Shown piece by piece: positions 173-16,495 of a DNA stretch of 64,000 nucleotides. The stretch lies in NCBI GenBank assembly GCA_947169265.1, contig CAMVPC010000001.1:1-64000 (forward strand), in the 5' to 3' direction. Position numbers and translations under genes: made by a program. The notes below the pieces were generated by a model. The model was not told the DNA's origin. It did not search any database and saw only the letters and a program-made list of their open reading frames with translations. Position 1 is the first letter of the stretch. Each line of letters starts with the position of its first letter. The stretch is from an uncultured Prevotellaceae bacterium. GTDB lineage: Bacteria > Bacteroidota > Bacteroidia > Bacteroidales > Muribaculaceae.

Positions 173-1927
173 TTAAATTTTGATGTAGATGCGGCGGCGA
201 TAGAGGATGTAGCCGAAGCACCACACGATGAGCACAAACGCGATGGCAAACAAGCACGAGGCGGCCTCGGGGTTGTGAGCCTTGACGCTGCCATTGTCGT
301 TGCGCTCGGCGCCGGTGACCCACTTGCAGCCGTCGTGCAGTAGCGAGTGGAACGTGAAGGTACGACCCTGGCTCGAGGCGGCTTCGAGCGCTTGGTTGTA
401 GGCTTCGACGGCTTTGTCGGGTGTCACGCTGTCGGGTAACTCTTTCGTGCCGCAGCCGGCAAGGTTGGTAATCAGCAGGTCGCGCGGCGTGGAGAACACT
501 TCGGTGAGGCCGCCCTCCTTGCCGTCGCCCTGCTCGAGTGCCATGAGCGCGCGCCCGTGCCCATCGCCGGCGGCGAGAGCATAGAGGCCGCGTGCCCGGG
601 CGTGGTCTTGCGCGAGGCCCATCATGCCGTAGTCGTGAGCCAGCGCGAGGTCGAAGCGGGCCGCGTTCATCGCCGAGTCGGCGGCTTCTTGCATCAGGGG
701 CAGGGCACGCGCGCTGTCGCCGGCGTTAAGGTAAGTGACGGCGAGGTTAAAGCGAGCCTCGTTCAGTCCGGCGTCGGCGGCCTGTCTGAAGAGTTGTTGC
801 GCCTTTAGTGTGTCAGACTCCACACCCTCGCCGTTGTAGGTCATGATAGCCAGGTTGTTGCAGGCCTCGGGAAGATTGGCGCGCGCGGCCGTGTCGAGCA
901 GTTTGGCGGCTTTCTCCTGGTCGGCGGCGCAATAGTCGGCCGAGTGGCCCAGGATAACGGCGCTGAACACGATGGAGAGCACGGTGCCCACGAGGTAGCA
1001 GAACAGCGGATTCACGCCGAAGGACTGGAAGAATCGGCACCACCGGTCGTGTCCCTTGATGTCGATGATATAGACGAGCAATGACAGGATGCACGAGGCC
1101 ATGCCCGTGGTGATGAGCACGTAAGACGTGGTCCACGCCTTTTTGCCGCACGGAATGCCATACTGCAGCAACCAGCCGGCCAGCAGCAGCCCTATGCCCA
1201 GTGTGGCCACCTTGACCACGCGCTCGCGGTTGTCGCGGTATTTGATGAGAAGACTGCCCACCATGAAGCCGATGAGCACATGGGCCACGCAAGCGATGGT
1301 GCTCAGCACGCCCTCGGGGTCGAGAGCGAGGCGCAACCCGTAGGCGCTCTCGTGGTACATGTGGTCGTCGCCCAGCACGGCCAGGTCGACGCGCGACAGG
1401 ATGTTGGCCGTCGAGAACTCGTAGCCGTTGCCCCATCCCAGTAGTGCGGCGTAGCCCACCAGCAACAGCCCGATGACCCACGGAATGAACTTCTGCTTGA
1501 CGAAGATGGCAATCATCGAACCGAAGAAATAGACGAGGGCCAAGCGCTGGAACACGCCCAGGAAACGCAGGTGATTCCACCAGCGGCTCATGTCGAAGGT
1601 GGAGCCGAAGAAACTGCGGAGCGTCATGCCGAACAAGCTCACGGCCCACCCGATGAGGAACAGCACCAGGGTGCGGCGCACGATTTTCCACAGTAGGGAC
1701 TTGCCGGGCTTGAAATCGAACTTGCGTAGCGAGAAAAACATCGATACGCCCATGACAAACACGAAGAAGGGGAACACGAGGTCGGTGGGCGTGAGCCCTA
1801 TCCACTCGGCGTGTTTAAGCGGGGCGTAAAGATTTCCCCACGACCCGGGGTTGTTCACCAGCAACATGCCGGCGATGGTGATGCCGCGCAAGATGTCGAC
1901 GGCCAGCAATCTCTTGTTTTCTTTCAT
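173..1927 (-). CDS. DUF5009/HGSNAT-like multi-pass membrane protein with inserted Sel1 repeats (probable MurNAc transporter, MurT-like)
   Basis: The 584-residue product starts with a DILRG motif in the first membrane helix and has about ten hydrophobic helices, as in the heparan-alpha-glucosaminide N-acetyltransferase-like (DUF5009) family. As I recall, a protein of this kind was reported as the inner-membrane MurNAc transporter MurT of Tannerella forsythia; here that role is inferred from the NamZ, AmpG, MurQ and kinase genes nearby. Residues about 332-468 are not membrane helices but 3-4 Sel1/TPR-like units (NLAxxYxxGxG, ALPLMQEAAD), placed before the last helix at about 555-575. The next gene upstream ends 9 bases away, so it is the last gene of an operon. 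Acyltransferase activity is the alternative. Confidence 0.75.
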   Translation of the reverse strand: MKENKRLLAVDILRGITIAGMLLVNNPGSWGNLYAPLKHAEWIGLTPTDLVFPFFVFVMGVSMFFSLRKFDFKPGKSLLWKIVRRTLVLFLIGWAVSLFGMTLRSFFGSTFDMSRWWNHLRFLGVFQRLALVYFFGSMIAIFVKQKFIPWVIGLLLVGYAALLGWGNGYEFSTANILSRVDLAVLGDDHMYHESAYGLRLALDPEGVLSTIACVAHVLIGFMVGSLLIKYRDNRERVVKVATLGIGLLLAGWLLQYGIPCGKKAWTTSYVLITTGMASCILSLLVYIIDIKGHDRWCRFFQSFGVNPLFCYLVGTVLSIVFSAVILGHSADYCAADQEKAAKLLDTAARANLPEACNNLAIMTYNGEGVESDTLKAQQLFRQAADAGLNEARFNLAVTYLNAGDSARALPLMQEAADSAMNAARFDLALAHDYGMMGLAQDHARARGLYALAAGDGHGRALMALEQGDGKEGGLTEVFSTPRDLLITNLAGCGTKELPDSVTPDKAVEAYNQALEAASSQGRTFTFHSLLHDGCKWVTGAERNDNGSVKAHNPEAASCLFAIAFVLIVWCFGYILYRRRIYIKI

Positions 1928-1936
1928 ATACTGTGA

Positions 1937-4720
1937 TTAATTGTTAGTGACAAGATGTTGATTAAGCAGGTAGATGAGCGACTGATAGGGTACACCACTG
2001 TGCGTGGTGAGGCCTATCTCGCAGGTGCGGCTATTCGAGAATCCACGCTTCACGCCATGTGCGGCGAGGGCTTCTCGCAGCTTGCGCAGCGCCCACTCGT
2101 TGAGTTCGGGATGGGTGAAACCCTTGTCGCCGGCAAAGCCGCAGCAGCCCACACCTTCGGGCAGGAAGACACGCGTGGAGCAACGTCGCGCAAGGTCCAC
2201 GAGTTTGTCGCCTATGCCCATGAGTCGCGTGGAGCAGGTGAGGTGCAAGGCCACAGGCTCGTCGTCTCGCGTGAATTGCAGCTCGGGTGCCACCCGGTCG
2301 TGGATGAACTCCATGAGTTCCAGTGGTTCGACGCACGTGAAGTGTTGTCGCATGTGGTGCAGGCAGGGACTTTGGTCGCACACCACGGGCCACTCGCCGT
2401 TGTTCGAGGCTTGCAGCAACGCTTCTTCGAGTTGTGCGGCCTTGGTGTCGGCGATGTCGGGCATACCTTTACTGGCCCAAATCATGCCGCAGCACAGTCG
2501 CTTCATGTCTTTGGGGAAGATGACTTGCCATCCGGCGCGCGAGAGGAAACTGACGACGGTGTCGACGAGGTCGGTGTCCACCCCCTTGCCGCGCCCCATC
2601 GTTTGATTGAGGCAACTGGGGAAGTATACCACCTTGCGGTCGCCTGTGGCCGGCGGCGTCGCAATCGCGCTTTTGGGGCGTGGCAACGAGGGCGTCCACA
2701 GGGGCATTCCCAACTTGTGCAGTCCGCGCCCCACAGCCGTCACGCCTTTGTCGCCGAGCACGACATGCCCGGCGTGAGCCACATAGAGTAGTCCTTTGAG
2801 CGAGGTTTTCACTCCCGCGAAGTGGCGTGCCACCCACTTGCCGGTGCCGTGTCCCAAGCTGCCTTTGGGCAACGCCTCGGCGCGCAGGTCGTGGGTGAGT
2901 TCGCCCACGTTGATTTTCATGGGACACGAGGTGGCGCACAGGCCATCGGCGGCACAGGTGACGTTGCCCGGGTAGCGGTATTGCCGCTCAAGGGCGCGCA
3001 GTAGCGCGGCGTTCTCGCCGGTGGCGCGCAGACGCGCCATTTCGCGCTGCACGATGATGCGTTGCCGCGACGAGAGGGTGAAGCCGGCGCTCACACAGTT
3101 CACCTCGCAAAAACCGCACTCGATGCACTTGTCCACGCGGTCGCTCACGCGCGGCATGGGCTTGAGGTGCTTGATGTAGCACTCGGAGTCGTCGTTGAAG
3201 ATGACGCCCGGGTTGAGGATGCCCAGCGGGTCGAAGATGCGCTTAATCTCGCGCATGATGTCGTAAGCCTCGTCGCCCCACTCGCGCTTGACGAAGGGCG
3301 CCATGTTGCGGCCCGTGCCGTGCTCGGCTTTGAGCGAGCCGTCATATTTGTCGATGACCAGCTTCACGGTGGCCTCCATGAGGTCGCGGTAGCGGTCTAT
3401 TTCTTGTCGTGTGTCGAAGGATTGCGCGATGATGAAGTGGTAGTTGCCCTCCAGGGCGTGGCCGTATATGCAGCTGTCGCTGTAGCCGTGGTCTATGAGC
3501 ATTTGCGCCAGGTCGACGGTGGCTTCGGGAAGGTCCTCGATGTGGAAGGCCACGTCCTCGATGATGACCGTGGTGCCCACGGGGCGCGTGCCGCCCACGC
3601 TGGGGAAGATGCCCGAGCGGATGGCCCAATATTTGCCATATTCCTTGGGATCGTCGGTGAAGCGGGCGGGCACGGCGAGCTTGTAGCCGCACAGAATTTC
3701 CTCAATGGCGGCGATATTCGTTTCGAGCTCTTCGCGGCTGTCGGCAAACGTTTGGATGAGGACAGCGGTGAGGTCTTTGCCTGTGGTGTCGTTCACGCTG
3801 GCCAGCGACTTGCGGTCGAGCAGCTCGGCACAATGCACCGGGCCTTTCTTGAGCGCTACAACGGCCTCGCAGGCCGCGCGCATCTGCTCAAAGTAGAGCA
3901 TGGCGCTGGCGCGGTGAGGAAACAGGTGTCCGGTCTTCATCGTGAACCGGCTGGCAAAAGCCAGTGTGCCCTCGCTGCCCACCATGAGGTGGGTGATGAT
4001 GTCGAAGGGGTCGCTGAAGCGGGCGAGCGGCAACAGGTTGAGGCCCGTCACGTTCTTGATGGCATACTTGTGCAGGATGCGCGCCTTGAGTTCGGGATTA
4101 CCTTGCACGCGGTCGCGCAACCGCTCGATGCCGGCGATAAAGTCGGGGTGGCTGCGGCCGAATGCCTCGCGGCTTGCGGCGTCGCCCGTGTCAAGCACAG
4201 TGCCGTCGGCCAGCACCATGCGCAGCGACACCAGTTCGCGGTCGCTATTGGCGTGGGTGCCGCAGCTCATGCCGCTGGCGTTGTTGATGACGATACCGCC
4301 CACCATGGCGCTGTTTTTCGATGCCGGGTCGGGCGTGAATGTGCGTCCATGGGGTGCCAGGATGCGGTCTACTTCAGCTCCCACGAGGCCGGGCTGCATG
4401 GTGATAAGCGTGGCGTCGTCGTTGAGCGAGTAGTCTTCCCAGTGCTTGCCGGCGACGATGAGAATGGAATCGGTGTTGGTCTGCCCGCTCAAGCTCGTGC
4501 CGGCCGCGCGGAAGGTGACGGGGAACCGCAATTCGCTCGCTATCGCGAGCAACCGCGACACCTCCTGCTCGTTTTTACTGCGCACCACCACTTGCGGCAC
4601 GTTGCGGTAGAAACCGGCGTCGGTGCCCCACGCCAGGCGCCGCAGCTCGTCGGTATAGATGCGCTCGCGCGGGATAAACGCCTTTATTTGCTTTACAAAA
4701 TCCTTATATCTCTGTTCCAT
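1937..4720 (-). CDS. FAD-binding and [4Fe-4S] oxidoreductase, D-lactate/D-2-hydroxyacid dehydrogenase type
   Basis: The 927-residue protein fuses a GlcD-like FAD domain (about 1-470; FRAAGTSLSGQT flavin loop, late AEHGTGRNM motif) to a GlcF-like iron-sulfur part: two cluster motifs CIECGFCEVNC and CAADGLCATSCP at about 530-605, then two CCG domains (CCGMIW, CCGFAGDKGF). This is the layout of YdiJ and of D-lactate:quinone oxidoreductases. There is no signal peptide, so it should sit on the cytoplasmic face of the membrane and pass electrons to a quinone or soluble carrier. It lies between the MurT-like and NamZ genes with 9-base gaps. MurQ releases D-lactate from MurNAc-6-phosphate, so D-lactate is the likeliest substrate; D-2-hydroxyglutarate or glycolate remain possible. 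Confidence 0.85.
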   Translation of the reverse strand: MEQRYKDFVKQIKAFIPRERIYTDELRRLAWGTDAGFYRNVPQVVVRSKNEQEVSRLLAIASELRFPVTFRAAGTSLSGQTNTDSILIVAGKHWEDYSLNDDATLITMQPGLVGAEVDRILAPHGRTFTPDPASKNSAMVGGIVINNASGMSCGTHANSDRELVSLRMVLADGTVLDTGDAASREAFGRSHPDFIAGIERLRDRVQGNPELKARILHKYAIKNVTGLNLLPLARFSDPFDIITHLMVGSEGTLAFASRFTMKTGHLFPHRASAMLYFEQMRAACEAVVALKKGPVHCAELLDRKSLASVNDTTGKDLTAVLIQTFADSREELETNIAAIEEILCGYKLAVPARFTDDPKEYGKYWAIRSGIFPSVGGTRPVGTTVIIEDVAFHIEDLPEATVDLAQMLIDHGYSDSCIYGHALEGNYHFIIAQSFDTRQEIDRYRDLMEATVKLVIDKYDGSLKAEHGTGRNMAPFVKREWGDEAYDIMREIKRIFDPLGILNPGVIFNDDSECYIKHLKPMPRVSDRVDKCIECGFCEVNCVSAGFTLSSRQRIIVQREMARLRATGENAALLRALERQYRYPGNVTCAADGLCATSCPMKINVGELTHDLRAEALPKGSLGHGTGKWVARHFAGVKTSLKGLLYVAHAGHVVLGDKGVTAVGRGLHKLGMPLWTPSLPRPKSAIATPPATGDRKVVYFPSCLNQTMGRGKGVDTDLVDTVVSFLSRAGWQVIFPKDMKRLCCGMIWASKGMPDIADTKAAQLEEALLQASNNGEWPVVCDQSPCLHHMRQHFTCVEPLELMEFIHDRVAPELQFTRDDEPVALHLTCSTRLMGIGDKLVDLARRCSTRVFLPEGVGCCGFAGDKGFTHPELNEWALRKLREALAAHGVKRGFSNSRTCEIGLTTHSGVPYQSLIYLLNQHLVTNN

Positions 4721-4729
4721 GTGTATGGT

Positions 4730-5998
4730 TTAGGGGAGGTCGATGAGGTCGAGGTCGCTGCCTTCGTGGTAGAGGTAATATCGTGTGGAAAGTTGCTTGA
4801 AGGCCGCGGCGTCCTTGTTGAAGTAGGCCTCAATGTCCTCCACACGGTAGCGCTTGATGAAGCGCTCGCGAATCTCCTTGGTGCCACACACCTTGTCGAA
4901 CATGTTGTAACGCTTGGGATTCTGCTCAAACAGCTCCTTGTCGGGGTACATCTCGTGGATAACTTGCAGGAAGTAGAATTGCGTGAGCGTGAGACGGGCC
5001 GCGTCGGGGTCGGTGATATAGGTCTGCACGCCGTGCACTTCTTGCAGCGACTTGTCCACGGCCACACTCAGGGCAAAGAACGGCTTGTAGTGAATGGGGC
5101 GGAAGTGCATGCCCGGCAGGTTGAGGGCGTTCATGCGACGGCACAACTCTTCGGCGTCGATCCACGAGGCGGCGAAGGTCTCGAAGGGCAACGTATAGCC
5201 GATGCCGGTGTTGAAGATGTAGAGCTCGCCCAGGATGCCGCTCACGGGATAGAAAAAGGCGTTCTCGGGGGCGGGGATTTGCGGCGAGGGAAGCACCCAG
5301 GGCATGCCGGTGTCGCGGAACTTCATGTCGCGTGTCCAGCCCTGCATGGGAATGACGGTGAGCTTGGCCTGTCCCTTAATCTTGTGCTCGCCGTTGAGCA
5401 GACGGGCGAGTTCGCCCGGTGTGAGTCCATATAAATAAGGTATGGAATACTTGCTCACAAACGAGAAGTAGCCGTCCTCCACAAGGTTCCCTTCTACCTT
5501 GTTACCGCCCAGGGGATTGGGGCGGTCGAGGACCATGAACTCGATGCCGTTTTCGGCGCAGGCCTCCATGCACACGCCCATCGTGGCGTAGAACGTGTAG
5601 CTGCGGCAGCCGATGTCTTGAATGTCGTACACGAGTACGTCGATGCCGCGTAGCATCTCGGGCGTGGGTTTGTGCGTTTTGCCGAAGAGCGAGTACATCT
5701 TGATGCCGGTGGCGGGATCCACGGCGTCGCCCACGGCGTCGCCGGCATGGGCGTTACCGCGCACGCCGTGCTCGGGGCCAAAGAGAGCCACGAGCTTCAC
5801 GCCGGGCGCCTCGTTGAGGATGTCGACAGTGCTCTTGAGGTTGTTGTCGATGCCGCTGGGGTTGGTCACCAGCCCCACACGCTTGCCTTGCAACTGCTTG
5901 AATCCGCTGTCGCGCAGCACTTCAATACCGGGTTTCACCACGGCGCCGGCGGCCATTACCACCACAGTGGCCATGAGAAATAAATAGTATCGTTTCAT
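4730..5998 (-). CDS. namZ: Exo-beta-N-acetylmuramidase, NamZ family (DUF1343)
   Basis: The 422-residue protein carries a signal peptide (hydrophobic residues about 4-20) and then the DUF1343 domain: GKRVGLVTNPSG, ALFGPEHGVRG, VYDIQDIGCRSYT and DRPNPLGG are all present. NamZ enzymes (GH171) remove MurNAc from non-reducing ends of peptidoglycan glycan chains. Export places it in the periplasm, where free MurNAc would be produced for the membrane protein encoded two genes downstream. It is 9 bases from the D-lactate dehydrogenase-type gene. The length is normal for the family. Confidence is high in the family and moderate in the exact substrate. Confidence 0.88.
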   Translation of the reverse strand: MKRYYLFLMATVVVMAAGAVVKPGIEVLRDSGFKQLQGKRVGLVTNPSGIDNNLKSTVDILNEAPGVKLVALFGPEHGVRGNAHAGDAVGDAVDPATGIKMYSLFGKTHKPTPEMLRGIDVLVYDIQDIGCRSYTFYATMGVCMEACAENGIEFMVLDRPNPLGGNKVEGNLVEDGYFSFVSKYSIPYLYGLTPGELARLLNGEHKIKGQAKLTVIPMQGWTRDMKFRDTGMPWVLPSPQIPAPENAFFYPVSGILGELYIFNTGIGYTLPFETFAASWIDAEELCRRMNALNLPGMHFRPIHYKPFFALSVAVDKSLQEVHGVQTYITDPDAARLTLTQFYFLQVIHEMYPDKELFEQNPKRYNMFDKVCGTKEIRERFIKRYRVEDIEAYFNKDAAAFKQLSTRYYLYHEGSDLDLIDLP

Positions 5999-6022: not shown

Positions 6023-6580
6023 TTATTTTTTCCTTTTGATAGTATGCTTGAGTTTGAGTACCGCAAAATTTAATTCAATCTCTGTTTCGGTCTCATCGGT
6101 GTGCATGTTGTCCCCGAACAAGTCATCCACAATCTCGCCACTGCGTCGCATGAGCGACTTTTGTTTTAATTCGTCGGGGTTCTGAGTCATCTCGTGGATA
6201 TTGCGCGACAACTCTCTCAACTTGGCAAATGCCTCAATGATGGCAAGGGTGGTCTGCACGGCCTTGTCGCCTTTGAGGATGGTGGCAAGCATATACAATC
6301 CTTTCTCGGTAAAGGCTTTATAGTTGTATTTGGAGTGGGTTCCTTTTCCTCCTCTTTGTTCTAAGGTCAAAAATTTTGATCTTAGAGCAGAGGATTCCTC
6401 ATTGTTGAGAGTGATGATATAACCATTAGGAAACTTGTTTGGATTATTTTTTACAGCTTGGTTAATAATTCTCGTTTCTACGCCGTAGAGTTGCGCCACG
6501 TCGTGGTCAAGAATTACGTCTTGTCCATGAATGGTCAGAATCTTGTCGTTGACCGAATCAAATTTTACAATACTGCTCAT
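6023..6580 (-). CDS. ORF6N domain DNA-binding protein (phage antirepressor type)
   Basis: The 185-residue protein has an N-terminal ORF6N domain: VILDHDVAQLYGVETRIINQ followed by NPNKFP and a FTEKGLYMLATILKG segment, then a charged C-terminal region. ORF6N/KilA-N proteins occur in phages and in bacterial chromosomes as DNA-binding antirepressor-like proteins. This gene lies between ampG and namZ in the same direction (24 and 38 bases from its neighbours) and is visibly more AT-rich than they are, which suggests later insertion into the cluster. Whether it regulates the operon or is a passenger cannot be read from the sequence. Confidence 0.8.
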   Translation of the reverse strand: MSSIVKFDSVNDKILTIHGQDVILDHDVAQLYGVETRIINQAVKNNPNKFPNGYIITLNNEESSALRSKFLTLEQRGGKGTHSKYNYKAFTEKGLYMLATILKGDKAVQTTLAIIEAFAKLRELSRNIHEMTQNPDELKQKSLMRRSGEIVDDLFGDNMHTDETETEIELNFAVLKLKHTIKRKK

Positions 6581-6618: not shown

Positions 6619-8655
6619 TTACTCCTTGAGGCTTTTTTCTTCATTGTCCTTTTTCAGGCCGAAAGAGGGATCCACTTTCACGATGAATGCGGCACCGATT
6701 GTGAACAAGCAGCAAATCATAGTCCAAACGAAGAAGTTTTGATAGCCGATGAGGTCTTCAAGCCATCCTGCCATCATACCCATCATCATGGAGAGTGCCA
6801 TAAAGCCGGTGCAAATAGCGTAATGCGCCGTCTTATATTTGCCCTCACTATAATATATAAGGTAAAGCATATAGGCCGTGAATCCGAAGCCGTAACCAAA
6901 TTGCTCGATGAAAACGCAAATGTTAACTGTGAGGAACGACTGATCTTGGGTGAACGACAGATATATAAATGTAAGGCAAGTGAGCGACATGCTCCACGCC
7001 ATAGGATGTAGCCATTTCTTAAGACCACCCTTAGCCGCCACGATGCCGCCAATGATACCGCCCAAAGTGAGGCCGATAATACCCACAGTGCCATATACGA
7101 TGCCTACCTCGCTAGTCGAAAGGGCCAAACCGCCTTTGTCGAGTGGGTCAACGAGGAACGGCATAATGATTTTCGTCAACTGGGCCTCGGGGAAGCGATA
7201 GAAAAGCATGAACAAGATGGCGGCTATGGTTTGCCACACGGGGAACTTTGTGAAGAAAGTCTTGAAGGTGTCAAAGAAACCACTCACGATTTCTTTTGCC
7301 GTCATTTTTTGTTGGTTGGCATCAACTGCCGGTTTAGGTAATGCCCAACTGTGATAAATGACAATGGCTAAGAAGAACGCCGATAAAACCACAAAAACTA
7401 TGGCCCAAGCAAGTGGTATATTGCCCGAAGTGCCGAGGAACGATGACGATACTTTCTCCTTGATTTTATTATCGATAGTGAAATGGATATAAGCCGGTTT
7501 GTCCCAGTTGGTTTCGTTGAATACGAATCTTGACTTGTCAACTTTTATGTCGGTGCTTCCCTTATCGTTGGCGATATTAAGCACATACTCCTCGCCTGGA
7601 GCAGGCTTCTTGTTGAGCCTGACGGCCACAATGGCAAAATTGGAGCCGGTGGCATCGGCTTTTATGTTTTTGAACTTGTCGGGGAATGTGGTGGCTATGA
7701 AGTTTTCAAATCCCGATTTGACGACTTCTTTCTTGGAAATGTCGCTCGCGCTTGCGGTTACGCTGTCGCCGTTAACGATGCCGATATATGCATAATGGTC
7801 GCCAGTCCACTCGGCCCTTACGAGTTTGAAGTCGTCTTTCTTGTTAAGCATCAACTTGTCATCGCTCGTGAAGTCGGGGTCGGGGATATAGAAGCCATTA
7901 GCGATATTTGAGCGGTTGATTGAGTCTCCGATTGCTTTGGTGTATTCGGCAAAAGTCATTGCCGAATCGCCCATTGCCCCCTCCTCGGGCACTTTAACCG
8001 AGGTGGCGATGGAGTTGGAACTGACGATGAAGTGAACGTCGCCGGTGAGGTCGGCTTCGGAGGGGTCTATGGTGGGAAGCACGGCCTCGGTGGCTGTGGC
8101 TTGCGGGTCGGCCTCGATGTCGATGCGTACGGGTTCGAGCCCCGAATTCATTTCAATCACGCCGGCCAAAATCACCAGCAGGCCTTGCCCCACTACGGTG
8201 GCAATGCGGTAGAAAGTGGAACGTATGCCCACAAATAGCGACTGCTCGTGCTCGGTGAGCGCCAGCATATAGAAACCGTCGGCGGCAATGTCGTGGGTAG
8301 CGCTGGCAAATCCCATCAGCATGAACACGGCGAAGGTGAGTTGCACCCACCAGGCGGTGGGGATAGTGAAAGCGATGCCCGCTAAGGCAATGGCCACCAC
8401 CCATTGCATGATGAGAATCCACCACCGTTTGGTTTTGATGATGTCCACGAATGGGCTCCAAAAGGGCTTGATTACCCAGGGTAGTCCCAGCCATCCGGTA
8501 TAAAGAGCGATGTCGGTGTTCGACATACCCAATCGCTTGTACATGATTACCGAGATTGTCATTACGGCCACATAAGGAAGTCCTTGCGCAAAATAGAGAG
8601 TGGGAATCCAAGCCCAAGGATTTCTTTTCGTCGTTTTTTTGATTTTGTTACTCAT
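6619..8655 (-). CDS. ampG: AmpG-like muropeptide permease (MFS) with large periplasmic insertion
   Basis: The 678-residue protein begins as an AmpG-type major facilitator: YFAQGLPY in helix 1, then HDIAADG after helix 4, and ends with the second helix bundle (about 413-665). AmpG normally has roughly 420-490 residues. The extra length is a hydrophilic block at about residues 170-412 between helices 5 and 6, a loop that should face the periplasm. Its end resembles Calx-beta-type or similar beta-sandwich repeats (RLNKKPAPG, then SRFVFNETNWDKP). AmpG imports anhydro-muropeptides; neighbouring SpoIID-like and NamZ genes fit this. The insert could bind substrate or the cell wall. Base composition is less GC-rich than the flanking genes. 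Confidence 0.82.
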   Translation of the reverse strand: MSNKIKKTTKRNPWAWIPTLYFAQGLPYVAVMTISVIMYKRLGMSNTDIALYTGWLGLPWVIKPFWSPFVDIIKTKRWWILIMQWVVAIALAGIAFTIPTAWWVQLTFAVFMLMGFASATHDIAADGFYMLALTEHEQSLFVGIRSTFYRIATVVGQGLLVILAGVIEMNSGLEPVRIDIEADPQATATEAVLPTIDPSEADLTGDVHFIVSSNSIATSVKVPEEGAMGDSAMTFAEYTKAIGDSINRSNIANGFYIPDPDFTSDDKLMLNKKDDFKLVRAEWTGDHYAYIGIVNGDSVTASASDISKKEVVKSGFENFIATTFPDKFKNIKADATGSNFAIVAVRLNKKPAPGEEYVLNIANDKGSTDIKVDKSRFVFNETNWDKPAYIHFTIDNKIKEKVSSSFLGTSGNIPLAWAIVFVVLSAFFLAIVIYHSWALPKPAVDANQQKMTAKEIVSGFFDTFKTFFTKFPVWQTIAAILFMLFYRFPEAQLTKIIMPFLVDPLDKGGLALSTSEVGIVYGTVGIIGLTLGGIIGGIVAAKGGLKKWLHPMAWSMSLTCLTFIYLSFTQDQSFLTVNICVFIEQFGYGFGFTAYMLYLIYYSEGKYKTAHYAICTGFMALSMMMGMMAGWLEDLIGYQNFFVWTMICCLFTIGAAFIVKVDPSFGLKKDNEEKSLKE

Positions 8656-8683: not shown

Positions 8684-9997
8684 TTAATATTGGGTGGTGA
8701 TGTTGGCGTTCACGAAGTAGTGGAGCAGGATTTGGCGGTAGCTGTAGCCGCGCGCGCCCATCACGGCGGCTCCAATCTGACACAGCCCCACGCCGTGGCC
8801 CCAGCCGGCGCCCCGCAGCACAAACTTGCCGGGGAAGCCGTCGGCGTCGATGTCGTGGCGCTCGACGATGAATGCCGAGCTGTAGAGGCATGAGGGCGAC
8901 AGGGCATAGCGGATGGCCAGCTCTTTACCAATGATTTTGGTCATTTTCTCGCCCACGATTTTGAGTTTATAAAGGCGGCCGCTGGTGCCTCGCGCCACGG
9001 GCTGCAGGTCGCTGATGCGGCCGTAGTCGTCGCCGGTGCGTCGGGCGATGAGCTCGGCCAGCTCATGGCCGGTGTATTCCACTTTCCAGCGGTAGAAGTC
9101 GGTTGTTTCCTGGTCATAGTCGTTGAGCACCTGTGAGAGGATTTCGGGGTCGCGGGTGTTGCAGTGGGCGTGTGGTGACGAGAGAATCCACTCGGCGGCG
9201 ATGTCCTCGCGCCGCAAGTCGGGGAAGTTGTCCTCATCATCGCTGTCGCGCCGTGCCTGCAGGTAGTCGTGATGGTGGTTGTCCCAACAATTCTCAAACT
9301 CCTCCATCACGCCGCCACACGACTTGGAGAAGCGTGCGTCGCACAGCTCGCCGCCGTAGGTGAGCACCTGTCCCCAGGTGGCCTCAATGGCCTGGCGCAC
9401 CGTCTCGGTCGTGGCGCGCGTGATGCCTTGATAGCGCTGGCAGTGGTCGTCGGCACACACGTCGAAGTTGAGGTGGTCGTCGCGGTCCCACCACTTGATG
9501 TCGGCCTCGTCGCTCTCTTCCTCATGGCCCATGGTGGCCTCGTTGAGGGTGGTCTTGTTCATTTGGGCCAATAGCCAGCTGCGCGAAATCACGGCGTGGG
9601 CCTTGAGCAGCTCGAGTGAGGCGTTGGCGCTCATCTCGCTCGAGATGACGCTCAGCAGGTATTCCTCGATACTGAGCACGTTGATGGCGGTGAGCTTGTC
9701 GCCCTCGACAATGAGCCGGAGCGCGCCGTGAAAGGTTTGGTCCTCCTTGCGGCGCCAGTGGAAACTCACCCCGATGGTGACATCGTGGAGCGTGAATGAG
9801 TCGGTGTCGGCATTGATAGGCTCGAACGTGAGCGTCGCGTGGCGCTCGCCGTCCCACTCAATGAGGCCGTCAACGACTTGGGCCAGCTGGTGGCCGCTCA
9901 CCCGCTTGTCGCCCACGAGATAGTCGTCGTGCAGGCTGAATTCTATCACGGGCTCGCTCATGATGCCCACCTTCACTTGCGGTACTGTGTTGTTCAT
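8684..9997 (-). CDS. SpoIID/LytB domain protein lacking a signal peptide
   Basis: The 437-residue protein has the SpoIID family hallmarks: an EYLLSVISSEMSA segment containing the expected catalytic Glu, LLKAHAVISRSW, a Cys/Ser-rich middle (FSKSCGGVMEEF), and the closing GWGHGVGLCQIGA motif. SpoIID is a lytic transglycosylase acting on glycan strands without peptides. Bacterial homologues are usually exported, but here the N-terminus (MNNTVPQVKVGIMSEP) has no hydrophobic segment, so the product looks cytosolic. It overlaps the DUF4922 gene by 4 bases (ATGA), showing translational coupling, and precedes ampG by 28 bases. It may act on muropeptides already imported by AmpG. Family assignment is firm; location and substrate are inference. 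Confidence 0.85.
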   Translation of the reverse strand: MNNTVPQVKVGIMSEPVIEFSLHDDYLVGDKRVSGHQLAQVVDGLIEWDGERHATLTFEPINADTDSFTLHDVTIGVSFHWRRKEDQTFHGALRLIVEGDKLTAINVLSIEEYLLSVISSEMSANASLELLKAHAVISRSWLLAQMNKTTLNEATMGHEEESDEADIKWWDRDDHLNFDVCADDHCQRYQGITRATTETVRQAIEATWGQVLTYGGELCDARFSKSCGGVMEEFENCWDNHHHDYLQARRDSDDEDNFPDLRREDIAAEWILSSPHAHCNTRDPEILSQVLNDYDQETTDFYRWKVEYTGHELAELIARRTGDDYGRISDLQPVARGTSGRLYKLKIVGEKMTKIIGKELAIRYALSPSCLYSSAFIVERHDIDADGFPGKFVLRGAGWGHGVGLCQIGAAVMGARGYSYRQILLHYFVNANITTQY

Positions 9998-10887
9998 ACG
10001 TTTTGTGAAAAATAGTCAATCAAAAAATCTTTTTCATCTTCGGTAATGCCCACTTCATCGCCTATGTCGTAAAGCAACTCGGGCTTGACGCGTTTAAAAT
10101 CCTCCTCTCTCACGATGGGCCATATGCCGCCCATCTCCACGGCGGCGGGGCTTATCAAGAACTGCTCCGGCCCCGTTCCGTAGCATGCCGGGCGGTGCTT
10201 GGCGCGCGGCACGATGATGATGTGCCACTGGCCGGCCGTGCGGTGGCAAAACACGTTTTGCATGGGCTCAGACTTGTCGCCATGCAGGCGGGTCATGCCA
10301 TCTTGCAGAATGTGGAACCATCTTAACGCTTCGTTCTTGCTCTTGCGGATGATGTAGAGGAATGGGAAATAGCATGAGAGGTCGGCGTCATTGTCGATGG
10401 TTTCACGACACAACGGCAGCTCGGCGAAGGGAACGGCTTGGAAATGCAGGTGTCGCGGTGCCGAGGCACCGCACCGCGGCCCGTTGTAGAAAAGCACGTA
10501 GCCCGGCATGAGTGCCGCCACGTCCATCATCTGCTCAATGTGGGGCACGATGGCCTGCGGCCGGTGGTCTACGGCGCTCACGGTGAGGTGGCGGGTGAAA
10601 ATGGGGTAGGGGTTCACCTGGATGCGGAGGCGGTTTCCCAAAGTAATGGCCTCTTGCTCGGGAGGTTGTTGCGCGGCACACAGGAAACACCGCTTCGCCT
10701 CCTCATCGCCGGCCTCTGCCGTCGCCGAGCGGTGGCGGCAGGGAAGGAGCCGGGCCACGAGCGTGCGCCCGTGGTGGCTGAACACCCGCTCGGGTGCTTG
10801 CGCCACAGCCGTGTAGTTGTCATGTGCCAACGACCAGTTGCTCAGCTGGCGGGCATAGAGGCCTTCGATTTTTTTGAGGAGGGTCAT
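9994..10887 (-). CDS. DUF4922 protein, HIT/GalT-like nucleotidyltransferase or phosphorylase
   Basis: The 297-residue protein shows a CxxC pair (CFLCAAQQ, about residue 70), an NPYPIFTRHLTV strand, a YNGPRCGASAP segment and an HLHFQ motif (HxHxQ) as in galactose-1-phosphate uridylyltransferase, GDP-hexose phosphorylase and Ap4A phosphorylase. The HxHxQ histidine is the usual nucleotidylated residue in that superfamily. No signal peptide is present. The gene is coupled to the SpoIID-like gene by a 4-base overlap and follows the glycosyltransferase gene by 23 bases. The three together suggest cytosolic chemistry on a nucleotide-activated sugar. The substrate is unknown; the family has no function I know of. 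Confidence 0.75.
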   Translation of the reverse strand: MTLLKKIEGLYARQLSNWSLAHDNYTAVAQAPERVFSHHGRTLVARLLPCRHRSATAEAGDEEAKRCFLCAAQQPPEQEAITLGNRLRIQVNPYPIFTRHLTVSAVDHRPQAIVPHIEQMMDVAALMPGYVLFYNGPRCGASAPRHLHFQAVPFAELPLCRETIDNDADLSCYFPFLYIIRKSKNEALRWFHILQDGMTRLHGDKSEPMQNVFCHRTAGQWHIIIVPRAKHRPACYGTGPEQFLISPAAVEMGGIWPIVREEDFKRVKPELLYDIGDEVGITEDEKDFLIDYFSQNV

Positions 10888-10910: not shown

Positions 10911-12407
10911 TCAGCAGCACTTGCAGCCCTTGTTGAGTGCGATGCGCGCCTGGAGCTCCCAGGTGCGGATGCGGTCCTTGTAGAGGTTGTTGCGGTTCAT
11001 CTTCTCTACGTCGAGACTCGCGTCGCTGTTGTCGTCCCAGCGGCGGCACAGGTACACGGGGGTGTAGACGCGCCCAATCTGGTAGGTGCGCGAGATGTTC
11101 AGCCCCAGCGCATAGTCCTCGCCGTAGCTTGTGTTGGGAATCTTGACATCGCGCAGCACGGGCGTGTAGAAGGCGCGCGGTGCACCCAACCCGTTGATGC
11201 GCAGGGCGTTGTTTCGGCCGTTTTCGGGTGTCCATTCCTTGTGGTCGATCACGCCGGGTGGGATGGGATTGCCGTCGATGTCGGTCATCAGGTAAGTACC
11301 CACCACCATGGCCACGTTTTGCTCATAGAAAGCGTTGACCATGGTTTGGAGCGTGTTTTCGTCCTTGTACATGTCGTCGCTGTCGAGTTGCACGATAAAC
11401 TTGCCGGCGAGTTCGTGGTGGGCCGCCATGTTCCAATATCCGCCGATGCCCATGTCATAGTAGTCGGCAATGAGGTGGATGAGGCGCGGGTCGTCATATT
11501 CGGCGATAGCTTCGCGGGTACCGTCGGTCGAGAAGTTGTCTACAATCATAAGGTTGAACTTGAACGTGGTCTTTTGCCGCAGCACGCTGTCGATGGCATC
11601 GCGAATGGTGCGGATGCGGTTGCGCACGGGAATCATCACCGTGGCTTCCACGGCAAAGTTGCCCTCGCTGAATTCGATGTGCTTGAAGTTGGGCACCAGC
11701 TTGCCGTCGACTTCTTTCTCGGGTGGCAGATACCCGCCTATCTCCTTGAGGTGCTGGGTGCAGGCGGCTTCCATCTCGATTTGGCGTCCGCGGTTGCGTG
11801 GGTCAACATAGTCGAAGATTTTCTCACCGCTCTTGCGCGTGTCGAGCTCCACATCGCTGTAGAGGAACTCGTTGATGTGGGTGATGGCGGCAAATTGCGA
11901 CAGCTTCAGGCGCAGGTCGTAGAGGCCCGCGTGCTCGTAGGTGGCTGTCATCTTTCCGGCGGCTTTCTTGAAGCAGCATGAGCAAAAAACGAGCACGCTG
12001 CCAAAGTCGAAGTCGTCGCGCAACGCGCCCTGCTGGTAGTCAATCACCGGGGCTTTGTCGGCGCCACGATCGGTGACGTTATAGTGGTCGGCATAGACCA
12101 TGCCGCTGCCGCTGTCGGCAAGGATTTTTACGAAACGCTCGATGGCGAAAGGCGCGAACTTGAGCGTGACGTGCTTGGTGTAGAGAAGCGTGACATCGCT
12201 GTCGGCTTTCTCGGCGATAGCCTTGATGGTGGCCGTGGAGGTGAGGTTGTCCACCTTGAGGATTTCACATCCTTCCACAGTGCCGGTGGCCTCGGGGGTG
12301 GCCAGGAGGTAGATTTTGCCGATGAGCTCTTGGCCCTTGAGGTTCTCGATAGTTGCCTGCACCTGCTCGGGGCTGACAAACGGGATAAAACAGTTGATTT
12401 TTGACAT
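10911..12407 (-). CDS. Family 2 glycosyltransferase
   Basis: The chosen ATG at 12407 gives 498 residues; an open frame continues upstream but through the octamer repeats of the spacer. Residues about 255-470 form a GT-A domain (VMIPVRNRIRTIRDAIDSVL, IVDNFSTDGT, and the DxD-type motif QLDSDDMY), followed by acceptor-side features (GEDYALGL). The N-terminal half also looks like a weaker GT-A fold (INCFIPFVSPEQ, VTLLYTKHVTL). The protein ends in a Cys-rich tail (KGCKCC). No signal or membrane segment is visible. Its position ahead of DUF4922, SpoIID-like and ampG genes links it to muropeptide metabolism, but donor and acceptor cannot be told. Confidence 0.8.
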   Translation of the reverse strand: MSKINCFIPFVSPEQVQATIENLKGQELIGKIYLLATPEATGTVEGCEILKVDNLTSTATIKAIAEKADSDVTLLYTKHVTLKFAPFAIERFVKILADSGSGMVYADHYNVTDRGADKAPVIDYQQGALRDDFDFGSVLVFCSCCFKKAAGKMTATYEHAGLYDLRLKLSQFAAITHINEFLYSDVELDTRKSGEKIFDYVDPRNRGRQIEMEAACTQHLKEIGGYLPPEKEVDGKLVPNFKHIEFSEGNFAVEATVMIPVRNRIRTIRDAIDSVLRQKTTFKFNLMIVDNFSTDGTREAIAEYDDPRLIHLIADYYDMGIGGYWNMAAHHELAGKFIVQLDSDDMYKDENTLQTMVNAFYEQNVAMVVGTYLMTDIDGNPIPPGVIDHKEWTPENGRNNALRINGLGAPRAFYTPVLRDVKIPNTSYGEDYALGLNISRTYQIGRVYTPVYLCRRWDDNSDASLDVEKMNRNNLYKDRIRTWELQARIALNKGCKCC

Positions 12408-12468: not shown

Positions 12469-15400
12469 TTATTTGCCGGCGAGGAATTGAAGCAGGTTGC
12501 CCATGAGGGCGGTGCGCTCGCTGCTGTCTTGCATGGTCTCGATCGGGAAACCGAGTACCGCTGTGCGGTAGTTGCCGCGGTCGCTGGCAATGCCGGCCGG
12601 AATGTTGTTCTCGCTGTAACGCATGATAGTGGCGCCAAGACTGTCGCTGGCTTTGATGGCGTCGGGGCTCTCGGCGGCATAGACCTCGCTGCCCAGTTGC
12701 GTGGTGAAGTGATAACGCTTGCCGTCGACGATGCTGCGCTGGAAGGGCGACGACACCGTGGTCACCTCGCCGCGTTGCGCGGCTTGGCCCGTGAGGTACT
12801 CATAGCCGAGCACGCTCTTGGCAAAGTCGATTTCGGTGGCGCTGGGAGCGTCTTTATCCCAAATGTCGGTCGCCACATAAGCGCCGCTCAGCAGCACATT
12901 GCCGCCGCCTGTGGTGAACTGCCGCAGGGTAGTCATGAGGGCGGGTGTGAACGCCTTGAAGCGGTTAGGCACGGCGCCGCGTCCCACGCGCGTTTCTTTT
13001 TGCTTACCCATGATGAGGTCGATGACAGTCACGCTCTTGGTGTCGGCCTTGCCGTTCTCGAAGGCTTGCAAGCTCGACGAGATGAAGGAATATCCGTTGG
13101 CGAGCAACGCCTCGCCATGCACGCCGGGGAAATCGAAGGTGTTGCCGGCGATGACCGTCGTCTCGTAGCCCGAGCGGCTGGCGCCGAAGCCGCCGGCGTC
13201 GTCGTCGCGCCAGGGCAGCTTGCGGCGGAACTCGAACTGCGAGCCCAGATAGTTGTATTGCTTGATGTAAGGCACGCCGTGGTCTTTCTCGTCGGCAAAG
13301 CCGGCTAACTCGCCACAGTCAAACCAGTCGGGGGCACTCACGCGGGTAAAGCTGTTGACGACGAGCACGTTGCCTTTGTTCTCACGCGCCACGCCCAACG
13401 ATAGCGTCTCGCTGGGGAAGCTGCGTCCGCCGTCGTTCATGGCGATGATTTTGAAGCTGTGCACCTCGTTGTCGTCGATGCTCACCGAGTAGTGGGGACT
13501 GTCGACAACGTCCACTTCCTTGAAGCCGTTGGCGTTGCCCACGCGCTCGAGCACGATATATTTCTTGGGGTCGGCGTTCTCGCTGAGTTTGTCGTGTGTG
13601 GGTTGCCAGCGGAGCATGAACAGGCGGTCGCTCACGCGCGTGATGGTGAAGCTGTTCACGGGCAGCGGTTGCACCACATAGTCGCGGTGGTCGCGTTGGG
13701 CGATGAACTTGAGGATACCCTTATAGATGGCGCGGCTCACGGTGAAGCGGAACGTGGGGTCGAGTCCATATTTCATGTCGGCGAAGTTCTGGTGGCTGAG
13801 CAATTCGAGCAACATGGCGGGCACCTCGGGCACACGCGCCTCATAGTATGACTTGTCCCACATGCCGCGGCGTGTCCAGTTTGGCTCGAAATCGGCGCGC
13901 ACGTCCTTGACGATTTCGCTTACCACAAAGTTGGTGAGGTTGCGCGACATCTCGCGTGGCGTGCCGTTCTCGTAGCGCCCGAAGTTCTTGCCATTCTTCT
14001 TGGTGCAATAAATGCCCAGGGTGCCGATGATGTCGTCGTTCATCGTTGTGCCGGCATCGCTGTGGAAGGCAAACGACACGTCAACGGGCACATTCAGGCC
14101 AGCTGCCTTGGGCAGCACTTGCGAGCCGCCGGCCAGATAGTTAACCCACTCGCCGCGGCAACGGTAGTCGTCCACATAGTCGTTGATGCCGTTGCTCGTC
14201 GAGTACACCTCATGGGGGAAGCCCGACCACTGGAGCCAGTAGCGAGCGCCTTCGGTGTAGCGCGGGTGCAGGCTGGGGACATACTTGTAGTCGATCCCTT
14301 CCTTACCCAGATAGGCCTCGTTTTCTTGTTCGGCGGCGAGACGTCGGTTCTCTTCGGTGGGCAGTGCGGGCCTGCGCACGATATTGCCCATGCCTCCGCC
14401 CACCTTGACGGCGTCGGCGGTGACCACGTGCTTGTCGTCGTGGCTCAGGTTGGAGAGTGTGACAACTTTCTCGTTGAGCCCCTTGGCGAGGCGGTAGTGG
14501 CCCACATAGACCCACACGCCGCCGCCCATGGTCTGGTCGATGGTCATCTCACGGGTCTGGTCGAGCGTGGTGATGGTGTAGTGAGCGTCCTGGCTGCTGT
14601 TGGGCAACGTTTTGTAAGATACATAGATGGCATATTCTCCGGCCTCGGGCACGGTGACGTCCCAGTGGGCAGCCGACACTTTTTTCTTGTCCTTGCTGGT
14701 CTTGACCATGCGGTAGGTGCCGTCGGTGAAAGGATTCTCGAAGTCTTTATAGTGCTCTTGCTTGTAAGCGAAGCCCGGCTCCTTGCCGTTGCCCCACTTT
14801 TGCTTGCCGTTAGCCTCGCTGTAGCCAGCCTGCGCGCGGAAGCCGTCGTTGTCGACGATGACCTCGACGCGCTGCGTGTCGCGCTCACGTGGACTCCACA
14901 CATAGGCGCCGGCATTCTCGAGCATGGGGTTGAGGAAGGGCATGACGTAGCTTTGCGTGTACAGGTCTTCAACCGTTTGCAGCACGCGGGCGCGTTGCCA
15001 CTCCCAGCGGTTGAGCTTGGGCTCGAAATACCATCCGTGGCTCTGCCACATGGCGATGATGTTGCCGTCAAGGCCCTTGTTGTAGTGGCGGTTGGGGTCG
15101 AGGTCGTGGATGAAGGCCGAGTGATGCCGCTTGTAGCTGTTGTCGTAGCTGGCGAAATATTGCTCGATGGGGTTGCCGGTGATGGTGAGCGCCACCTCCT
15201 TGTCGTCGTAGTCGCTGCCCAGGACCGATTTGATGTCGCGCTCGAGGGCGTCGAGACTCTCGCGGGTGAACGGCACGTCGCCATAGTTCTCGGTAAGGTC
15301 GACGCGCAGTGTGTCGCCGTCGAGCACGACGCTCTTGGCCTTGGGCACGCCTATCCCCATCTTTGGGGGCAGCGTGGCCGCCACCACTTTGTTCACTTGG

Positions 15401-15489
15401 GCCAGTTGCTCGTCGGTGAGCGCCTGGGCCTTTGCCGCCAGGCACGACATTGCCACGGCCATGGCTAAGAGTAGACTTTTCTTCAACAT
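12469..15489 (-). CDS. Exported N-acetylmuramoyl-L-alanine amidase-like protein with inserted golvesin-type domain
   Basis: Starting at the ATG at 15489 (signal peptide 1-22, LAAKAQ) the product has 1006 residues; the longer open frame upstream has no support. The amidase_3-like fold appears split: IIAMWQSHGWYF at about 144-155 and the second half at about 405-595 (SFAFHSDAG near 475, MLLELLSHQN near 565). Between them (about 205-365) lies a golvesin/xanthan-lyase-type beta domain, which itself ends in VVTADAVKVGGGMG. A fibronectin III-like segment (about 605-705) and a 290-residue C-terminal domain follow. Family members are often labelled xanthan lyase. It should cleave stem peptides or bind glycan outside the cell. 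Confidence 0.75.
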   Translation of the reverse strand: MLKKSLLLAMAVAMSCLAAKAQALTDEQLAQVNKVVAATLPPKMGIGVPKAKSVVLDGDTLRVDLTENYGDVPFTRESLDALERDIKSVLGSDYDDKEVALTITGNPIEQYFASYDNSYKRHHSAFIHDLDPNRHYNKGLDGNIIAMWQSHGWYFEPKLNRWEWQRARVLQTVEDLYTQSYVMPFLNPMLENAGAYVWSPRERDTQRVEVIVDNDGFRAQAGYSEANGKQKWGNGKEPGFAYKQEHYKDFENPFTDGTYRMVKTSKDKKKVSAAHWDVTVPEAGEYAIYVSYKTLPNSSQDAHYTITTLDQTREMTIDQTMGGGVWVYVGHYRLAKGLNEKVVTLSNLSHDDKHVVTADAVKVGGGMGNIVRRPALPTEENRRLAAEQENEAYLGKEGIDYKYVPSLHPRYTEGARYWLQWSGFPHEVYSTSNGINDYVDDYRCRGEWVNYLAGGSQVLPKAAGLNVPVDVSFAFHSDAGTTMNDDIIGTLGIYCTKKNGKNFGRYENGTPREMSRNLTNFVVSEIVKDVRADFEPNWTRRGMWDKSYYEARVPEVPAMLLELLSHQNFADMKYGLDPTFRFTVSRAIYKGILKFIAQRDHRDYVVQPLPVNSFTITRVSDRLFMLRWQPTHDKLSENADPKKYIVLERVGNANGFKEVDVVDSPHYSVSIDDNEVHSFKIIAMNDGGRSFPSETLSLGVARENKGNVLVVNSFTRVSAPDWFDCGELAGFADEKDHGVPYIKQYNYLGSQFEFRRKLPWRDDDAGGFGASRSGYETTVIAGNTFDFPGVHGEALLANGYSFISSSLQAFENGKADTKSVTVIDLIMGKQKETRVGRGAVPNRFKAFTPALMTTLRQFTTGGGNVLLSGAYVATDIWDKDAPSATEIDFAKSVLGYEYLTGQAAQRGEVTTVSSPFQRSIVDGKRYHFTTQLGSEVYAAESPDAIKASDSLGATIMRYSENNIPAGIASDRGNYRTAVLGFPIETMQDSSERTALMGNLLQFLAGK

Positions 15490-15526
15490 AATATAATGGA
15501 ATGTGATGAATATTTCTTTGTCGCAA

Positions 15527-15556
15527 TGTGGCCTTTGGCCACACGAGACAAAGTTA
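15527..15556 (-). promoter_or_regulatory. Promoter -7 box and leader hairpin of the amidase gene
   Basis: On the minus strand TAACTTTG at 15556-15549 matches the TAnnTTTG box of Bacteroidetes promoters; a good -33 box is not seen. Just downstream a 7-bp perfect inverted repeat with a 3-base loop (15527-15533 with 15537-15543) covers the likely transcription start and early leader, 38 bases before the ATG. It could be an operator or an RNA hairpin. Confidence 0.5.
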
Positions 15557-15637
15557 GGCAAAACATTCCATTTATCGGGAAAAAGATGGCAAACTTTTTC
15601 TCGATATAAACGATATTTAATATTTTTAAACGGTTTT

Positions 15638-16495
15638 TTAGGGATTGGCCGTGTGGTAAACCACCAGGCCGGGCATCGAGCTGCTGATGATTTTGAGGAT
15701 GTGGGCCCCATAGTTCGAGGCCACTTGAAGCAGAATTTCGCTGTACTTGCAGGCCACAACACCCACAAAGCAAATGGGGTGTTCCTTGTAGTCGTACTGG
15801 CAAAGGTGGCGGTCGAAGAAGCGGGTGATTTCATCGTGCACAAGCCGATAGACGTATTCGTTGTCGAGGTGGTCGGCAAGGAACATGCTGTAGTTGCGCA
15901 AGTTGCGGTTGGCAAACGGGTTGTTGTACACGCTGTCCATGATGGCCTCGGGAGTGGTGTGCATACTCTCGTAAAAAGCCTCGATGAGCGGCTTGGGGGC
16001 AAGGTTCTTGAGCACGTCGCCCAAGAAGATGCGGCCCATGGCACTGCCGCTGCCCTCGTCACCCAGAATGAAACCGCACGAGTTCACGCGACGTACGATG
16101 CGCTCCCCGTCGTAGAAACACGAGTTGCTGCCGGTGCCCAGAATGCAGGCCAGGCCGGCCTCGTTGATGAGCAGGCCGCGCGCCGCCCCCAGCAAGTCGC
16201 TCTCGACTGTGGTGGGCGACTTGAACTGTGCCACGAGCGAGGCCTCCACGATCTTGATTTTCTCGGGGTTGGAGCAACCCGCGCCGTAGAAATACACGTG
16301 GTCCCAGCGGCGCTTGAAAAATTCATGCGGCAGCTCGAGACGCACGATGTGGCTAATCTCTCGGCGCGTTTGGAAGAAGGGGTTCAAACCGGTTGTTGTG
16401 GCCTGCGCCACAACTTCGTCGCCGCTCACCAGGCTCCACTCGGTGCGCGTCGACGAACTCTCGCCAATTACGATGTTTTCTTCGGTCGATTTCAT
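15638..16495 (-). CDS. BadF/BadG-type sugar kinase paralogue with altered first phosphate motif
   Basis: The 285-residue protein is a clear paralogue of the kinase at 22033-22878: both share LGTGSNSCFYDGERIV-type and ILGDEGSGxxMG motifs and the same length. This family includes GlcNAc kinases and the MurNAc kinase MurK. The N-terminal phosphate-1 motif differs: where the paralogue has ADCGSTK, this one has GESSSTR, so the usual Asp is Glu and the Gly is Ser. It may phosphorylate another amino sugar, be slow, or act as a sensor. It is separated from the amidase gene by 148 bases holding a promoter, so it may be a single-gene unit at the head of the island. Confidence 0.82.
   Translation of the reverse strand: MKSTEENIVIGESSSTRTEWSLVSGDEVVAQATTTGLNPFFQTRREISHIVRLELPHEFFKRRWDHVYFYGAGCSNPEKIKIVEASLVAQFKSPTTVESDLLGAARGLLINEAGLACILGTGSNSCFYDGERIVRRVNSCGFILGDEGSGSAMGRIFLGDVLKNLAPKPLIEAFYESMHTTPEAIMDSVYNNPFANRNLRNYSMFLADHLDNEYVYRLVHDEITRFFDRHLCQYDYKEHPICFVGVVACKYSEILLQVASNYGAHILKIISSSMPGLVVYHTANP

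Follow-up and report, generated by a model that had tools for sequence, protein, structure and literature searches.

The DNA analysed here, hereafter the window, is a 64,000-nt stretch of contig CAMVPC010000001.1 (assembly GCA_947169265.1) from a bacterium of the order Bacteroidales, and all coordinates are positions within it. Ten genes on its minus strand (173..16495) form one bacterium's version of the ampG operon known from Tannerella forsythia (Tanf_08345-08385). Our new finding concerns three of these genes, which encode a two-domain GT2 glycosyltransferase, a DUF4922 protein and a SpoIID/LytB-domain protein (hereafter SpoIID): across genomes of the order they behave as one unit with AmpG, the muropeptide importer. 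We regard the chances as about even that this is a salvage operon with a core of AmpG and the three predicted cytoplasmic enzymes, which would process imported disaccharides of N-acetylglucosamine (GlcNAc) and N-acetylmuramic acid (MurNAc), namely GlcNAc-(anhydro)MurNAc.

AmpG, GT2, DUF4922 and SpoIID behave as one unit

Each of these genes was looked for in the same draw of 198 genomes from the order. AmpG orthologues were accepted at an expectation value (E) of 1e-43 or better (ten matches at E 1.4e-36 or weaker were left out), members of the SpoIID subfamily at 204 bits or more per piece (58 other matches, all at or below 61 bits, were left out), and GT2 orthologues at 475 bits or more, with the three thresholds set in score gaps after the scores were known. 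On this basis AmpG was found in 43 genomes and SpoIID in 43, and the two sets were identical, while the 42 genomes with GT2 were the same set minus a single member (G386). DUF4922 exceeded its cut-off in 43 genomes, i.e., the GT2 set plus a stray match of 28.6 bits in a genome where the other three genes are absent (G459), which was dropped from the counts. A class-wide draw returned DUF4922 in nine of 295 genomes, all inside the order. The GT2 match left out by the threshold is a diverged homologue (224 bits, G305 C86:338-3506) about 1.1 kb from a gene for the MurNAc-6-phosphate etherase MurQ, in a genome that is 61% complete and in which AmpG, SpoIID and DUF4922 orthologues were not matched.

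All four genes lie within 10 kb of each other in 25 of the 42 genomes, and the remaining 17 keep all four, yet farther apart or on separate contigs. Three of these (G304, G415 and G417) have the genes at contig ends, so that a contig break probably separates true neighbours. About 14 genomes with a scattered unit remain; in G422, 1.4 Mb of a single contig separates the genes. Five families (f6, f99, f108, f137 and f141) were represented by genomes that have the unit as well as by genomes that do not, and in the listed matches it was either wholly present or wholly absent; the f6 genome without it (G275) measures 1.2 Mb only. Three genomes with Ignavibacteria-type titles carry an isolated GT2-DUF4922 pair, with the SpoIID orthologue elsewhere in the genome.

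The enzymes are also found fused. In 125 loci (80 named and 45 unnamed) 16 open reading frames (ORFs) join them in three arrangements: GT2, DUF4922 and SpoIID together in three, GT2 with DUF4922 in four, and DUF4922 with SpoIID in nine. These are not 16 independent events, because the loci partly overlap in organisms and several of the fusions come from similar animal-gut metagenome-assembled genomes; the named loci are the best 80 of 571 confirmed stretches and are thus biased towards the relatives of the query. Where SpoIID lies apart from DUF4922 (16 regions), seven regions have a pathway gene beside it, namely MurQ (L170, L171, L172), AmpG (L175, L176, L177) or MurT (L166). Two loci (L043 8395-9330 and L063 3910-4842) carry between DUF4922 and AmpG an ORF of ~311 residues that resembles two GNAT domains by eye; as a candidate SpoIID substitute it was rejected, as SpoIID is on another contig beside MurQ (L171 and L172).

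The SpoIID protein of the window (8684..9997, minus strand, 437 residues) matches TIGR02669 at 171.7 bits (cut-off 83.3) and is 61.6% identical to the T. forsythia orthologue. Since it is without a signal peptide, it is predicted from its sequence to be cytoplasmic. Its N-terminal hydropathy is 0.95, vs. 2.79 for the exo-β-N-acetylmuramidase NamZ and 2.40 for the amidase of the same operon. A strongly hydrophobic N-terminus (score of 2.0 or more, with any upstream in-frame ATG allowed) was found in one of 80 SpoIID proteins, compared to 79 of 82 NamZ and 35 of 41 amidase proteins from the same loci, and the SpoIID proteins of T. forsythia and Bacteroides fragilis begin with a similar N-terminal segment. 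The glutamate of the SEM motif, the HxxFDVCADDHC, CGG and GWGHGVGLCQ motifs are invariant or nearly so; the glutamate, which we take to be the putative catalytic residue, is invariant in 27 sequences and aligned with the SEM/GEM of solved SpoIID. The protein shares the domain, this residue and conserved motifs with the SpoIID/LytB lytic transglycosylases, but differs from them in its predicted lack of a signal peptide and, in some loci, in its fusion to cytoplasmic enzymes. The gap in bit scores reported above further sets its subfamily, which is tightly conserved, apart from other SpoIID proteins in the same search. The SpoIID of Waddlia has been described as a muramidase acting on peptide-free glycan (PMC6635528), and is thus a precedent for the use of water in this family.

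The DUF4922 protein (9994..10887, minus strand; 147 bits, over the cut-off) would be a nucleotidyl transferase or phosphorylase of the Ap4A-phosphorylase/GalT type. Structural comparison places it in the HIT/GalT/Apa2 fold, like Ap4A phosphorylase, and the matches listed include ADP-glucose phosphorylase. H146-x-H148-x-Q150 is invariant in 34 sequences, so the HxHxQ motif, presumably the nucleophile motif of HIT/GalT/Apa2 nucleotidyl transferases, is present. In contrast to Apa2, GalT and the ADP- and GDP-sugar phosphorylases, it is paired with a GT2 enzyme and an importer. The window copy is unusually diverged, at 29-37% identity to its relatives vs. 52-71% for GT2 and 53-67% for SpoIID.

GT2 itself (10911..12407, minus strand, 498 residues; PF00535, 72 bits, over the cut-off) starts at about 12407, the first ATG of the ORF not being the start, and is 64-67% identical to its T. 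forsythia and B. fragilis counterparts. The nearest named relatives of both GT2 and SpoIID are in loci titled Muribaculaceae or Limisoma (66-71%). The GT2 model spans the chondroitin polymerase K4CP domain by domain and has two GT-A domains, although the rmsd (root-mean-square deviation) of 21.2 implies that the two domains are arranged differently in the model. The DxD motif of the C-terminal domain (D342-S-D344-D345) is invariant in 31 sequences.

The operon in the window and in Tannerella forsythia

The ten genes are all at the places given to them by an earlier, sequence-only reading of this DNA, in the order (5' to 3' on the minus strand) kinase, amidase, GT2, DUF4922, SpoIID, AmpG, ORF6N, NamZ, FAD/Fe-S dehydrogenase and MurT. 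Counted from MurT upward, the junctions measure 9, 9, 24, 38, 28, -4, 23, 61 and 148 bases. A spacing of mostly 9-61 bases, as had been claimed, thus holds for most of them, the exceptions being a four-base overlap of the SpoIID start with the DUF4922 stop and the widest junction, the 148 bases between amidase and kinase; the other eight all fall between -4 and 61. We searched for TAnnTTTG, the consensus of the -7-type promoter motif of Bacteroidales. On the minus strand of positions 1-17000 it occurs only before the amidase (15549..15556), before the kinase (16518..16525) and at 22, beyond the end of MurT, i.e., at the two widest gaps and past the last gene, which fits a nine-gene block that starts with the amidase. 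The two-part pattern TTTG-N18-23-TAnnTTTG gave ten matches in the window vs. 0.5 expected, none within the cluster, and an Rfam search of positions 1-24000 gave zero matches.

In T. forsythia, Tanf_08345-08370 is described as xanthan lyase, gtf, gtf, lytB, ampG and ybbC, with murT-murK-murQ next, and as a single transcript by reverse-transcription PCR whose promoter is activated by GppX (PMC5388701, PMC7670621). The role in peptidoglycan-sugar salvage that the sequence-only reading had proposed agrees with this published operon. The window keeps the amidase-GT2-DUF4922-SpoIID-AmpG-NamZ-MurT order, with ORF6N and the dehydrogenase interleaved, its orthologues are from 35% (DUF4922) to 74% (MurQ) identical, and a kinase gene likewise stands immediately upstream. 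It differs in adding the D-lactate-dehydrogenase-type gene and ORF6N and in carrying murK-murQ on the plus strand, 5.5 kb past the kinase, rather than directly after murT; in many relatives (e.g., L117 and L142) the two genes are contiguous with the operon. The gene order is conserved far beyond close relatives. A branch of the pathway made up of unassigned members had also been suggested. GT2 and DUF4922 do belong, together with SpoIID, which had not been counted among the odd members and is a predicted cytoplasmic part of the unit, whereas ORF6N probably does not belong and the operon as such had already been published.

AmpG, MurT, the amidase and the kinase owe their names to identity with the T. 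forsythia operon, since their family scores are sub-threshold. The kinase (15638..16495, minus strand) is 55.6% identical to its T. forsythia counterpart, which lies upstream of the amidase in contig L110 and matches in position the K1058 kinase described in PMC10465942. Its assignment to BadF by Pfam is weak (15.9 bits vs. a cut-off of 31.5), and we relied instead on the comparison with T. forsythia and with solved MurNAc/GlcNAc kinases (solved relatives 8oqk/8ow7, N-acetylglucosamine kinase). The secreted Amidase_3-type protein (12469..15489, minus strand) has a signal-like N-terminus and a Golvesin_C insert (80 bits, over the cut-off), scores 18 for Amidase_3 (cut-off 27) and is 44% identical to the gene at the Tanf_08345 position; no solved relative of it was found by sequence. 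Two Bacteroides loci (L083 6536-8389 and L084 6641-8512) have an ORF for a secreted protein, metallophosphoesterase-like by eye, between amidase and GT2, and two Marinilabilia-type loci (L147 12588-15059 and L152 12207-14768) have a GH9-like ORF (by eye) of ~820-850 residues between SpoIID and AmpG.

AmpG (6619..8655, minus strand) scores 53 bits for MFS_1, over the cut-off, and 155 for TIGR00901, below the cut-off of 350, and aligns in two pieces (49-65% identity) to T. forsythia AmpG, as ~240 extra residues lie between its two halves. The length of AmpG ORFs in named loci is bimodal: 34 of 64 have at most 480 residues, 30 exceed 560 and none lies between, with T. forsythia having the short form. 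NamZ (4730..5998, minus strand; PF07075/PF20732) has a signal-like N-terminus, scores 287 bits for NamZ_N, over the cut-off, and is 56% identical to the T. forsythia protein. The last gene of the block encodes a MurT-type transporter (173..1927, minus strand; NagX/DUF5009-like), 49% identical to T. forsythia MurT and at 139 bits below the NagX cut-off of 480. It has 584 residues, compared to 376-479 in 33 MurT ORFs of named loci, and the excess is a Sel1/TPR stretch at about residues 335-530, within the membrane transporter.

The FAD/4Fe-4S oxidoreductase (1937..4720, minus strand; PF02913, PF01565, Fer4_8 and CCG) is of the D-lactate-dehydrogenase type, which suggests its probable substrate. 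FAD-oxidase_C scores 165 bits, over the cut-off, and the protein is 58% identical to a gene of the B. fragilis cluster. In Bacteroides and Muribaculaceae loci it stands between NamZ and MurT, as in the window. Of the named loci, 40 are 20 kb or longer, and it is present in 22 of these; 20 of the 22 also have MurQ and two end right after the MurK-type kinase, while 11 of the 40 have MurQ without it. This association fits the release of D-lactate by MurQ (PMC5790795). The ORF6N gene (6023..6580, minus strand; PF10543, 101 bits, over the cut-off) has a GC content of 42% vs. 49-62% for the other nine, and no homologue was found in the 80 named and 45 unnamed loci. It is probably an insertion; its low GC content and its absence from the 80 named loci led us to reject it as a pathway member.

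Outside the operon, the plus strand carries the kinase and MurQ at 22033-23722, as had been read: a MurK-type kinase (22033..22878, 49.6% identical to T. forsythia MurK) and MurQ itself (22907..23722; 74% identical to T. forsythia MurQ, and at 298 bits just below the TIGR00274 cut-off of 302). The ORF that had been named SGNH is present at 21164-22006 on the same strand.

A candidate route for the imported disaccharide

For the salvage reading introduced above, we infer the substrate, the direction and every reaction of the GT2-DUF4922-SpoIID trio as follows. Stripping and trimming of glycan outside the cytoplasm would fall to the secreted amidase and NamZ, and import of peptide-free GlcNAc-MurNAc and GlcNAc-anhydroMurNAc to AmpG. 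Import of these two by AmpG has been reported by others for T. forsythia only (PMC7670621), and the published preference of that AmpG for the peptide-free disaccharide matches a secreted amidase as first gene. Inside, SpoIID would act at the muramyl C1, where it would most likely open the 1,6-anhydro ring or hydrolyse the glycosidic bond, while GT2 and DUF4922 would recover the GlcNAc half. In the chemistry that we favour, GT2 would run towards a nucleoside-diphosphate sugar (NDP-GlcNAc) and MurNAc, and DUF4922 would phosphorolyse NDP-GlcNAc to GlcNAc-1-phosphate. MurNAc would go to the 6-kinases and, where present, to MurQ, with the D-lactate released by MurQ passing to the FAD/Fe-S dehydrogenase.

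The route known from E. coli, with NagZ, AnmK and MurQ, has AmpG in common with the salvage reading and takes in the same type of cargo, but AnmK was not found in the window's own genome (95.6% complete) or in 38 of the 43 AmpG genomes, and NagZ exceeded its cut-off in none of the 198. AnmK was found in five of the 43 (in pieces in G330) compared to 130 of the 155 others (Fisher p 1e-18, uncorrected for ancestry), and was not found in T. forsythia, B. fragilis or four more named Bacteroidales. In the sections of PMC7670621 drawn on here, AnmK is not predicted in T. forsythia and the processing route is left open by the authors. The best NagZ match of the window's own genome is a GH3 ORF of 985 residues (152 bits vs. 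a cut-off of 207). Among the matches listed for the 43 AmpG genomes, the 22 with an ORF length given are all GH3 ORFs of at least 582 residues; 13 genomes, and the second match in G417, have no length listed, and eight gave no match at E 1e-20. ORFs of NagZ size (367-453 residues) are present in at least 15 genomes that lack an AmpG orthologue. MurQ is present in 24 of the 43 AmpG genomes vs. 20 of the 155 others. A full path to GlcNAc-6-phosphate and pyruvate, as had been drawn from the window, can be written, with the D-lactate of MurQ feeding the D-lactate-dehydrogenase-type enzyme, but we rejected GlcNAc-6-phosphate as the general end of the pathway. MurQ is missing in 19 of the 43, which implies that catabolism is optional and that the conserved unit has another core function; 19 of the 43 lack both MurQ and AnmK.

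Several observations weigh against the salvage reading. SpoIID enzymes usually cleave MurNAc-GlcNAc and not GlcNAc-MurNAc bonds, and GT2 enzymes normally synthesise glycosides, whereas the favoured scheme needs the reverse. One genome (G386, family f164) has AmpG and SpoIID without GT2 and DUF4922, and nine of the 16 separate SpoIID regions (L163-L165, L167-L169, L173, L174 and L178) have no pathway gene within ~4.5 kb. The five genomes of the order with both AnmK and the unit belong here too, as do three Ignavibacteria-titled genomes and one labelled Cyclobacteriaceae, where the SpoIID orthologue and AnmK occur together in four of four. This coexistence implies that the trio is not simply a stand-in for AnmK, and it weakens the plain view that the trio replaces AnmK; Bacteroidales may have lost AnmK secondarily. 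We consider tentative, and rather doubtful as a whole, the wider claim of a further kind of recycling in Bacteroidales and some Ignavibacteria, in which a cytoplasmic GT2-DUF4922-SpoIID machine, sometimes one polypeptide, would break down the disaccharide brought in by AmpG without NagZ and AnmK, combining nucleotide-dependent phosphorolysis of the GlcNAc bond with hydrolysis of the anhydro ring and keeping the bond energy as sugar phosphate or NDP-sugar.

Competing explanations and biological meaning

The strongest competitor, though unlikely in our estimate, is that the trio is biosynthetic: DUF4922 would make or exchange an NDP-sugar, GT2 would build a small cytoplasmic glycan, and SpoIID would transglycosylate the imported anhydro-disaccharide onto that glycan or trim it, with the glycan serving as a store, signal or precursor. 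The two-domain polymerase fold of GT2 and the usually synthetic role of its family point this way, and the AmpG genomes without MurQ and AnmK need a non-catabolic use; on the other hand, such a scheme has no known product and takes steps beyond the needs of an import pathway.

It is improbable that shared regulation alone places GT2 and DUF4922 in the operon, their task being the glycosylation of surfaces or proteins, and that SpoIID is a wall enzyme exported non-classically. This would accord with PMC5388701, which terms the T. forsythia operon glycosylation-related and cites Niwa et al. 2011, whose title links GppX to surface-protein modification; however, the genes co-occur with AmpG even when scattered, GT2 and DUF4922 are fused to SpoIID, and 79 of 80 SpoIID proteins lack a signal-like N-terminus.

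Slightly less probable again is quality control, with the trio clearing toxic by-products such as anhydroMurNAc adducts or wrong NDP-sugars. GDP-glucose phosphorylase is a precedent for the clearance of by-products. The structural match of DUF4922 to ADP-glucose phosphorylase, the DUF4922 assignment of some plant proteins of the GDP-galactose-phosphorylase family and the presence of AnmK alongside SpoIID in all four outlying genomes are in keeping with this, but the shared distribution of AmpG and the unit is left unexplained. Least probable of all is hitch-hiking, i.e., co-occurrence by block inheritance and an AnmK contrast of pure ancestry, for although most units are clustered, three more probably so across contig breaks, AnmK and the unit both track lineage and nine of the 16 SpoIID genes standing apart lack a pathway gene nearby, the unit stays complete when scattered, is all-or-none in five families, and in three genomes pairs an isolated GT2-DUF4922 with SpoIID in trans.

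In the parts of the open-licence literature that we searched, no role in the AmpG-sugar pathway was found for GT2, for DUF4922 or for a SpoIID acting in the cytoplasm, and DUF4922 appeared in plant papers only. How AmpG-bearing Bacteroidales process the imported wall disaccharide is a gap, for which the unit supplies three candidate enzymes, two without an assigned function and one usually regarded as a wall enzyme, together with a predicted site of action. If the salvage reading is true, an enzyme with a SpoIID domain would be placed in the cytoplasm, and DUF4922 would gain a pathway.

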